A DNA stretch of 64,000 bases, from assembly GCA_902386555.1 (NCBI GenBank), contig CABMJJ010000009.1, positions 151,680 to 215,679 on the forward strand, written 5' to 3'. This stretch comes from Candidatus Bilamarchaeum dharawalense. GTDB lineage: Archaea > Micrarchaeota > Micrarchaeia > Anstonellales > Bilamarchaeaceae. The notes beneath the pieces are model-generated. The model worked only from the letters and a program-made list of their open reading frames with translations, did not search any database and was not told where the DNA came from. The position numbers were made by a program, and so were the translations under genes. Position 1 is the first letter of the stretch. The number at the start of each line of letters is the position of its first letter. Shown here one piece after another: positions 40,313 to 43,218 of the stretch.

Positions 40313-40373
40313 AAACTTTAGGCATAACCAAATAGTTAGGATGCCGAGGTCGCATAACCCGGTAGTGCGTCGG

Positions 40374-40390
40374 AAGCATATGCTGGCGAA
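40374..40390 (+). other. Putative 17-nt intron of tRNA-Ser at position 30/31
   Basis: Seventeen bases containing the self-complementary AGCATATGCT interrupt the anticodon stem. Removal restores a T31-A39 pair and a normal serine anticodon loop. Archaeal introns at non-canonical stem positions are known, but the boundaries are deduced only from tRNA folding. Confidence 0.5.
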
Positions 40391-40397
40391 TCTCGAA

Positions 40398-40438
40398 CCG
40401 GTTTAGCCGGGTCTTTTTCCAAAAAGACTCGGAGAGAC
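40398..40438 (+). other. Putative 41-nt intron of tRNA-Ser at canonical position 37/38
   Basis: It contains a 12-bp hairpin (CCGGGTCTTTTT with AAAAAGACTCGG, 40407-40432, loop CC). Bases C32-T33-C34 can pair with the intron GAG at 40434-40436, and three-base bulges then fall at both cut sites, matching a bulge-helix-bulge splice substrate with one mismatch at position 35. Confidence 0.6.
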
Positions 40439-40507
40439 AACCGATCCCTTGTGGATTACAGGTTCAAATCCTGTCCTCGGCGTTTTTTTAAATTTAATAG
40501 GAGCATG

Positions 40508-41320: not shown

Positions 41321-41391
41321 TCCGCCTTTTACTAAAAGGCGGCCCAAAAGTTGGTTGCTATTTTGTGGGCCATCGAACTCTGTTCGATTGG
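41321..41391 (+). repeat. Three-hairpin element directly after tRNA-Gly
   Basis: The gap 41321-41584 has no gene. Stem I: CCGCCTTTT/AAAAGGCGG (41322-41342). Stem II: GGCCCAAAA with TTTTGTGGGCC (41341-41371) around an 11-nt loop ending TTGCTA. Stem III: CCATCGAAC with GTTCGATTGG (41370-41391). The order and the core TTGCTATTTTG match the insertion inside tRNA-Thr at 42923. The rest of the gap to 41551 shows nothing clear. Confidence 0.6.
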
Positions 41392-41584: not shown

Positions 41585-42877
41585 ATGGCGCCCAGACAGA
41601 TTGCTGTTTCAGATGTATTAGTTGAACGCGACCGACCTAGGCGGGCCCTTGTTGAATTAGCTCAAAAATTAGCCGAACCGGATCGAGACTCACAGTCAAC
41701 TTTTAGGCTAAAAAAAACTCTTGCTTCGGATTGTGGAGCAACTATGGCAATGTTCAAAATAGGAAGATTGATGAATGAAGATTTTCCAAAACTCGGGGAT
41801 TATATTGCAGCATTGATGTCTGTTTTTGAATATGCACGTTATTGTGGAGTGTATTTGTTGCCAAGAGTAGCCGAGGGATCGGTTGGACGATTGGAACACC
41901 GGGTTTCGGTACTACGCAACGATCCTTTTTTTACAGTCTATGGATCGAACGAAACGGATTTGATAGATCCAGATTCACCAGTAGTAAGATTACGAAATCT
42001 GGCTTTTGCTGGAAAGCATCCAACGTTCTTTGATTACGATGCCGGACTCAAGCTTGTTTTTGATGATCTTGATATGAATAATATTGGTTGCACTGTCCAC
42101 TCGTTCCCAGAAACTGTGGATGTCTTAAAAATGGGTTCCCTGGCCCTCATGCCATTCCATTATAGAGACCCAAGCTATCCTTCGGGTATTGTTTTATTTG
42201 AAGGTGATCTTAGATGCAAGGACTCCAGACTTGGCGGGGTGGAAAGAGCATTTTGGGGAGCTCACGCAGCAGTGGAAGCAGCCTCACAGATAGCATTTAT
42301 GATCACCCAAAAATTTGATGCCATCACCACTTTGACTAAATTAGTTGACTTTAACGCAGACCTTGTCAATGCCATAAGACTTGTAAGTGCGGGAGCAAGT
42401 AGGGATGCCTGGGTGCTGCTCATAGATTTGGATGATCTTAAAAAATTGAACAACATCAGCTACCAGGAAGGGAATATACAGTTGAGAAGATTGGCAGATA
42501 CTGCAAAGGCTTCCATTAGACCGAGTGATATGGTTGCAAGATGGGGCGGGGATGAGTTTGCCGCATTGCTTAGAGGGGTGGGAAGGGAAGAAGCCCTGGC
42601 CATAGCTGACAGGATAAGACAAAATTATGCAAATCACATCAGACAGGGGCATGGAGTAACCTGTAGCATTGGAGTTGCAAGTGTTGATGAAGTTATACGC
42701 ACCAGACTAGGAGGACTTGTTGGTCTGTCTGGTATGCCCTATGATTTAATGGAAGGAGTTTTCAACGAGATTTTTAGTAATGCAAACACAGCAGTACAAG
42801 AATCAAAACATCAAGGTAAAAACAGAGTATACTATTTTGAAAATGGAGTTGTCACGCCCTACGTACCAAGCTTATAA
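41585..42877 (+). CDS. GGDEF-domain protein (putative diguanylate cyclase) with N-terminal sensor-like region
   Basis: This 430-residue protein has a C-terminal GGDEF domain: LLIDLDDLKKLN (metal/guanine-binding strand), the RxxD inhibitory site at 312-315 and RWGGDEFAALL with GGDEF at 321-325, then TCSIGVASV. The N-terminal 240 residues are globular, perhaps GAF-like, with no membrane helix. GGDEF proteins make cyclic di-GMP in bacteria and are rare in archaea. A TTTTTAAAC box (41552-41560) gives a leaderless start. No EAL or PilZ protein is visible in the window. Confidence 0.88.
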   Translation: MAPRQIAVSDVLVERDRPRRALVELAQKLAEPDRDSQSTFRLKKTLASDCGATMAMFKIGRLMNEDFPKLGDYIAALMSVFEYARYCGVYLLPRVAEGSVGRLEHRVSVLRNDPFFTVYGSNETDLIDPDSPVVRLRNLAFAGKHPTFFDYDAGLKLVFDDLDMNNIGCTVHSFPETVDVLKMGSLALMPFHYRDPSYPSGIVLFEGDLRCKDSRLGGVERAFWGAHAAVEAASQIAFMITQKFDAITTLTKLVDFNADLVNAIRLVSAGASRDAWVLLIDLDDLKKLNNISYQEGNIQLRRLADTAKASIRPSDMVARWGGDEFAALLRGVGREEALAIADRIRQNYANHIRQGHGVTCSIGVASVDEVIRTRLGGLVGLSGMPYDLMEGVFNEIFSNANTAVQESKHQGKNRVYYFENGVVTPYVPSL

Positions 42878-42922
42878 ATTGAATTAAACTATTTTTTGTA
42901 ATAGAGTGCCTCAGTAGCTCAG

Positions 42923-43002
42923 CGCGCTTTTTTAGGAAAAAAGCGCGGCAAAAAACGTGTTTGCTATTTTGCCGTGTTATAAAACTAAAAAAGTACGGGA
43001 AA
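42923..43002 (+). other. 80-nt insertion in the D-loop of tRNA-Thr
   Basis: It separates AG from TGGTA of the D-loop. It contains stem I CGCGCTTTTTT/AAAAAAGCGCG (42923-42947), stem II GGCAAAA/TTTTGCC (42947-42973) with a loop ending TTGCTA, and a weaker stem III CCGT/ACGG (42972-42998). No protein is encoded. A canonical bulge-helix-bulge is not obvious because stem I abuts the exon. Confidence 0.7.
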
Positions 43003-43023
43003 TGGTAGAGCGCCTCTCTCGTA

Positions 43024-43161
43024 AACTTTTTGGAAAAAAGTTTAACAAAAACCATTTGGTTGCAAAACCCTTTCGGGTTTTGAATGTTTAACCTATTTTG
43101 CGGCCCACGGGAAGCAAAATTAGCATCCCAGTTTTGGGGTGCCTTTTTCCAAAAAGGCACA
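43024..43161 (+). other. 138-nt insertion at position 37/38 of tRNA-Thr
   Basis: Non-coding and rich in hairpins: AAACTTTTT/AAAAAAGTTT at the 5-prime end, GCAAAACCC/GGGTTTTG near 43062-43082, ATTTTGC/GCAAAAT, and GTGCCTTTTT/AAAAAGGCAC (43139-43160) touching the 3-prime exon. It includes CTATTTTG, part of the core shared by the other elements. The position is canonical for an archaeal intron but the length without an endonuclease gene is unusual. Confidence 0.7.
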
Positions 43162-43218
43162 AGGAGGAAGTCGGGAGTTCAACTCTCTCCTGAGGCTTTT
43201 GTTTATGGAGTAGGATTT

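Follow-up and report, generated by a model that had tools for sequence, protein, structure and literature searches.

The window analysed here, a 64,000-nt (64-kb) stretch of a 1.27-Mb archaeal assembly that is 88% complete, carries a tRNA-Thr(CGT) gene interrupted by two insertions. Taken together, the evidence makes it probable that both insertions are introns of the bulge-helix-bulge (BHB) class derived from a hairpin-ended repeat family that targets tRNA genes, that the family is mobile across the genus, and that its copies are spliced by an epsilon2 tRNA-splicing endonuclease (EndA) together with the RtcB ligase.

The interrupted tRNA-Thr(CGT) gene

The gene consists of three exons:

42908-42922, + strand: exon 1, with the acceptor 5′ strand, the D-stem 5′ strand, A14 and G15
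43003-43023, + strand: exon 2, with the rest of the D-loop, the D-stem 3′ strand, the anticodon stem 5′ strand, the anticodon CGT and A37
43162-43197, + strand: exon 3, with A38, the anticodon stem 3′ strand, variable loop, T-arm, acceptor 3′ strand and discriminator

A preliminary description of this DNA had proposed that these segments join into a complete 72-nt threonine tRNA, and two analyses agree with it: ARAGORN calls the joined sequence (GCCTCAGTAGCTCAGTGGTAGAGCGCCTCTCTCGTAAGGAGGAAGTCGGGAGTTCAACTCTCTCCTGAGGCT) tRNA-Thr(cgt), and a full cloverleaf is predicted when it is folded. All stems are paired and the exons show no decay. In place, the gene is detected by neither ARAGORN nor Rfam because of the 80- and 138-nt insertions. 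These are not an assembly artefact, since several independent MAGs show similar insertions at matching positions of the orthologous gene, which lies near triosephosphate isomerase. The interrupted gene is real.

The preliminary description had also named an intact tRNA-Thr(CGT) elsewhere, together with a lack of joined RNA, as a sign that this gene is a broken copy. A search of the 88% complete assembly gave no second, intact tRNA-Thr(CGT); the sole other full-length match to the joined exons in the genome is an intact tRNA-Thr(TGT), 86% identical.

Anatomy of the two introns

The following features are found in the two introns:

42923-43002, + strand: D-loop intron, 80 nt, between tRNA nt 15 and 16
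42923-42947, + strand: left terminal hairpin of the D-loop intron, CGCGCTTTTTTAGGAAAAAAGCGCG, 11 bp and perfect, followed by GCAAAAAACG, the CAAAA motif of the family
42927-42935, + strand: 5′ arm of helix H′ of the D-loop intron, CTTTTTTAG, partner 42985-42993
42985-42993, + strand: 3′ arm of helix H′ of the D-loop intron, CTAAAAAAG
42997-43000, + strand: 3′ strand of the BHB central helix of the D-loop intron, GGGA, partner D-stem GCTC at 42917-42920 (three of four pairs, one G-U)
43024-43161, + strand: anticodon-loop intron, 138 nt; the best motif register is 43025-43162 (38^39), with an identical joined product
43022-43044, + strand: left terminal hairpin of the anticodon intron, TAAACTTTTTGGAAAAAAGTTTA, 10 bp, its 5′ arm beginning within exon 2
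43026-43038, + strand: 5′ arm of the 13-bp helix H′ of the anticodon intron, CTTTTTGGAAAAA, partner 43144-43156
43139-43160, + strand: right terminal hairpin of the anticodon intron, GTGCCTTTTTCCAAAAAGGCAC, 9-10 bp, a family end as an inverted copy

The insertions had been described as built of hairpins, and perfect hairpins of 9-11 bp are indeed located in them. Such structures are rare in the window, which contains no more than 12 perfect hairpins with stems of 9 bp or longer and loops of 3-8 nt. Four of these 12 have the cap formed by a C-T-run and an A-run-G; three lie in tRNA-Thr(CGT) and one abuts a tRNA-Gly gene.

In a BHB, the 3′ end of the intron pairs with the exon sequence that precedes the 5′ cut. 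The D-loop intron displays a BHB-like motif of this kind, GCTC AG^C GCGCTTTTTTAG ... CTAAAAAAGTAC GGGA AA^T, with three of the four central pairs and a long H′. No BHB had been evident in the preliminary description; the motif appears once the left hairpin is opened. At the anticodon loop the junction is ambiguous by 1-2 nt owing to a repeated A. The best register, 38^39, combines the 13-bp H′ with two of four central pairs, and the orthologous intron of congener G011, read by eye, shows four of four in the same register. Other D-loop introns of the same genome contain perfect BHBs (GCTC AG^T..GAGC AA^C in two tRNAs, and GTCG AG^T..CGAC AA^T). Of the 42 introns that spliced alignment could place, 13 show a good central helix and H′ together, against about 1.4 expected (3.3% of shuffled introns). 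Group I or group II intron structures gave no Rfam match at gathering score within the 64-kb window.

The folding energy of the precursor is 6.6 SD below that of shuffled sequences (z = −6.6). Its minimum-energy fold is the form with both H′ helices, at −107.2 kcal/mol versus −101.4 kcal/mol with all end hairpins; forcing the latter costs about 6 kcal/mol, mostly from the anticodon intron. End hairpins and H′ thus compete, and in the D-loop intron the two forms are only about 1 kcal/mol apart.

These structures suggest a route to the mature tRNA. The gene, the only copy detected, would be transcribed in the cell as a single precursor. In the productive fold the 5′ end of each intron would pair with its own 3′ end as helix H′, and the 3′ end of the D-loop intron would pair additionally with the D-stem. 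The epsilon2 endonuclease, of relaxed specificity, would then excise both introns and RtcB would join the exons.

Splicing enzymes

The tRNA-splicing endonuclease of the genome, 391 aa long, shows a whole-length match to ARMAN-2 EndA (PDB 4fz2, E-value = 3e-131) and conserves the lysine of the ARMAN-specific loop (ASL), K161 of ARMAN-2. By sequence it is assigned to the epsilon2 (ARMAN-type) class. Its nearest relatives among named records are 72-87% identical and nearly all come from Candidatus Micrarchaeota MAGs, and the placement of the genome among the micrarchaea is based on this protein. An RtcB ligase is encoded as well (E-value = 4.9e-168). The epsilon2 EndA of ARMAN-2 accepts relaxed BHB and bulge-helix-loop motifs (PMC12397907, PMC6379350), and an unusually tolerant splicing enzyme is probably why the repeat family has spread through most tRNA genes. 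A second EndA-like protein of 166 aa is found at L159:576-1076 (− strand); similar ones occur beside the epsilon2 enzyme in most of the genus.

Interrupted tRNA genes in the genome and genus

The Rfam model finds only 18 tRNAs in the genome at an E-value of 0.001. When less stringent searches, searches for the hairpins and spliced alignment against intact tRNAs of congeners are added, with some curation by eye, the total is about 43 tRNA loci, of which about 34 are interrupted and nine are uninterrupted. Genome-wide counts here are based on pattern and family searches and on retrieved stretches. The introns occupy the D-loop, position 37/38, the variable region and the T-loop, and some genes hold at least three. 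Since the interrupted loci include isoacceptors for which no intact copy was seen, the cell would have to splice. D-loop introns had been taken to occur mainly in some Crenarchaeota; the host here is a micrarchaeon, and ARMAN and Asgard archaea likewise possess multiple or non-canonical tRNA introns (PMC4033280, PMC11291895).

Within the genus the number of Rfam-recognisable tRNAs per genome ranges from 3 to 36 and drops as the number of family ends climbs (Spearman −0.52, p = 0.03).

Several other loci show unusual insertions. L285 (G000:C2), a probable tRNA-Trp(CCA), has a long anticodon intron and, in the T-loop, an insertion bearing the family hairpin. L026 and L027 (G000:C3) are two tRNA genes with a near-identical stretch of more than 60 nt (CTATGAAAAGATGTTTCTTTCCATGGGCACAGGAAACGTTGTTTCCTGC...) in their introns, which is another repeat type.

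The D-loop intron of tRNA-Thr(CGT) is patchily distributed among orthologues. It is present in G000, G004, G006, G007, G009, G014 and G015, those of G004 and G007 being without the family hairpin, and absent from G002, G011, G013 and G016; the intact tRNA-Thr(CGT) of the G002/G003 set, one of the intact tRNAs used for alignment, is scored as G003. This pattern requires at least two changes, either gains or losses, on a genus tree most of whose branches are open. Unrelated stems (GAAAC and CCGCC) are seen in the D-loop introns of the sister species G009 and G015; either stem finds a match in the arm of its own hairpin and, less exactly in G009, in the 3′ end of its intron. Introns in the triosephosphate isomerase genes of relatives were considered and rejected, as the stop codons in the matches arise where match ends run past the gene.

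The hairpin-ended repeat family

Across the genus, family ends share one plan: a lower stem of 3-6 bp, a C, four to six T, a three-base cap (most commonly AGG), an A-run, a G and the complementary stem. CAAAA follows within a few bases of the hairpin, and right ends are the inverted copy. The cap, C-T(4-6)-NNN-A(4-6)-G, is conserved, while the lower stem varies and is almost purely Watson-Crick. The total length of the stem hardly varies (9-11 bp); ends with fewer T have more lower-stem pairs. In 70 ends chosen solely by cap and CAAAA, lower-stem positions 1-3 give 200 Watson-Crick pairs, 1 G-U pair and 9 mismatches, with 29 different tetramers. End stems contain fewer G-U pairs than the tRNA stems of this genus do (0.5% vs 3.7%), a mildly significant difference (Fisher p = 0.02) which hints that the end palindromes arise, or are maintained, in DNA.

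A search for cap plus CAAAA gives 43 occurrences in this genome and one for a reversed control pattern. Corresponding counts are 101 vs 3 in congener G014, 25-27 vs 1-3 in a sister genus and 28 vs 0 in G057, of another family; in most other relatives and genera they are at background level. Among congeners, G014 is rich in ends and G003 poor. The family has a narrow range that takes in this genus, a sister genus and a single genus from another family.

About 36 of the 43 ends of this genome, assigned partly by eye, lie in or flush with tRNA genes. The sites are D-, anticodon- and T-loops and positions abutting tRNA 3′ ends; several ends are about 1-2 nt from the tRNA 3′ end (Gly-TCC, His, Gly-CCC and others). 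One of these is in the window:

41322-41371, + strand: family end behind tRNA-Gly(TCC), CCGCCTTTTACTAAAAGGCGGCCCAAAAGTTGGTTGCT..., starting 1-2 nt past the tRNA 3′ end

In other genomes, broken tRNAs make a simple-pattern test for association with tRNA boxes a weak one (10/30, 3/15 and 3/15 vs 4/50, 0/28 and 0/14). In G057 many ends directly adjoin intact tRNAs at their 3′ ends, and the interiors are near-identical. G057 belongs to a distant genus of the same order, and its 28 family ends, at loci L361-L376, are mostly repeats; at L363 the element is preceded by the tRNA 3′ end for a second time (caaatcccaccccctgcat), as if duplicated on insertion.

Outside tRNA genes the ends are few; they are found within or adjacent to SRP RNA, inside a possible C/D sRNA and in spacers separating protein genes. 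At L164:1008-1283 (G000:C3) an SRP RNA match below the gathering cut-off stops right where the family hairpin starts, so that the element is either an intron in the SRP RNA or flush with it. At L046/L161 (G000:C4:51121-51181) a two-hairpin element lies between a D′-like CTGA and a C′-like TGATGA and resembles an intron of a box C/D sRNA, a possible one. A protein-gene intron near L161 was rejected: an apparent split of a reading frame was seen, and the surroundings are not coding.

At least one case of copying between tRNA genes is present. The 37/38 intron of tRNA-Asp and the T-loop intron of tRNA-Pro in this genome are 96.5% identical over 85 nt, with end hairpins that differ on both sides. 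This is the only clear recent pair in the genome, and gene conversion could be an alternative to copying here. The preliminary description had raised a mobile element living in tRNA genes, and the spread of the family over the genome and the genus supports this.

Origin of the introns and alternative explanations

We infer that the tRNA-Thr(CGT) gene is transcribed and spliced and that the family transposes actively. Under this explanation small non-coding hairpin-ended repeats would have copied themselves into tRNA genes throughout the genus, and copies inside tRNAs would persist because the endonuclease removes them.

Eukaryotic introner elements are short, non-autonomous repeats which insert and are then removed by splicing as introns. 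They are spliceosomal and found in mRNA, whereas the present family is in tRNA and presumably spliced by protein enzymes. A more speculative version, possible but not one we would favour, sees the family as archaeal tRNA 'introners' that target folded RNA genes, chiefly tRNAs, and remake their end hairpins and exon-complementary ends at each site. A copy would then be ready for splicing as an intron as soon as it has inserted. Fold-back (template-switch) DNA synthesis could make Watson-Crick end hairpins with site-specific stems, and also the inverted exon copy (GCTC..GAGC) that forms the BHB; alternatively, RNA-level reverse splicing might be followed by copying into DNA.

An improbable though not negligible alternative is that drift let ordinary BHB introns build up in the presence of a tolerant endonuclease, and that selection for strong intron helices made the hairpin ends converge. 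Consistent with drift, the orthologous anticodon introns of G002 and G011 are simpler BHB-like introns with no end hairpin; further, introns are described as building up in Thermoproteales, whose endonuclease is tolerant, and multiple introns are known from ARMAN (PMC4033280). However, the cap and CAAAA recur at dozens of unrelated sites, some of them outside introns and directly against tRNA 3′ ends, where an intron helix would serve no purpose. Most other genera of the family have end counts close to background, and two different tRNAs share near-identical interiors, which also argues against drift.

It is very unlikely that the insertions killed the gene and that tRNA-Thr(TGT) wobble-reads ACG codons. 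The intact tRNA-Thr(TGT) and the weak motif of the anticodon intron would fit such a pseudogene, but the fully paired exons, the retention of the gene with similar insertions in many species, and the interruption of some 34 of 43 tRNA loci, including isoacceptors with no intact copy seen, speak against it.

The ends of known Y1 elements have stem sequences which, unlike those of this family, do not vary freely. Least plausible of all is a palindrome-type DNA element moved by a hairpin-recognising Y1 (IS200/IS605-like) transposase, with splicing only making insertion survivable: the perfect, almost G-U-free hairpin ends would suit it, but the conserved end hairpin sequence of IS200/IS605 is not found in the family (only the cap is constant), and the Y1 transposase, the sole mobility-enzyme class tested, was rejected as the mover, being absent from this genome and from 12 of 17 genomes of the genus, with no evident link to copy number. 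With Y1 as the class searched for, no transposase, integrase or reverse transcriptase was tied to the family.

Comparison with known systems

The transposed introns of Thermoproteales (Fujishima et al., 2010, via PMC4033280) are similar in that one tRNA may hold several introns, similar introns occur in different tRNAs and the endonuclease is tolerant. Phylum and endonuclease type differ. The present family apparently differs further in its conserved caps with freely varying complementary stems, and in ends that also abut tRNA 3′ ends and lie at a few non-tRNA sites. Of the Thermoproteales-type features, near-identical introns in different tRNAs are represented here by one clear pair (Asp 37/38 and Pro T-loop), and patchily occupied orthologous sites by the Thr(CGT) D-loop intron.

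ARMAN-1 and ARMAN-2 (Micrarchaeum; PMC4033280, PMC6379350, PMC12397907) belong to the same phylum, share the epsilon2 EndA with the ASL lysine, and have introns at various positions with relaxed motifs; unlike those described, the introns here form a definable repeat family and a very heavy load. In Atabeyarchaeia and Freyarchaeia most tRNA genes contain introns, frequently more than one and at non-canonical sites, but these are Asgard archaea, and a hairpin-ended repeat family does not figure in the available part of their description (PMC11291895). The tRNA-targeting element proposed in Caldiarchaeum likewise makes a mobile element the cause of tRNA intron gain, but is 1.8 kb long with a predicted recombinase gene (PMC3293823), whereas members of the present family are about 50-170 nt and non-coding. 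No description of the hairpin-ended family was found in the open literature, most subscription papers being outside the search, and its novelty is provisional.

The origin and spread of tRNA introns is an old open question, and a genus with 3 to 36 recognisable tRNAs per genome and definable intron ends is a natural series in which intron gain may be read directly. Because standard tRNA finders miss many tRNAs here, tRNAs that seem to be lost from such micrarchaea may simply have escaped annotation.

Other features of the window

Another interrupted tRNA is found at window positions 40343-40482, just upstream of triosephosphate isomerase, and its insertion contains the GTCTTTTTCCAAAAAGAC hairpin. 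ARAGORN labels it, probably wrongly, as tRNA Val-gac with an intron. Positions 41585-42877 encode a GGDEF-domain protein in this micrarchaeon; GGDEF domains are uncommon in archaea.
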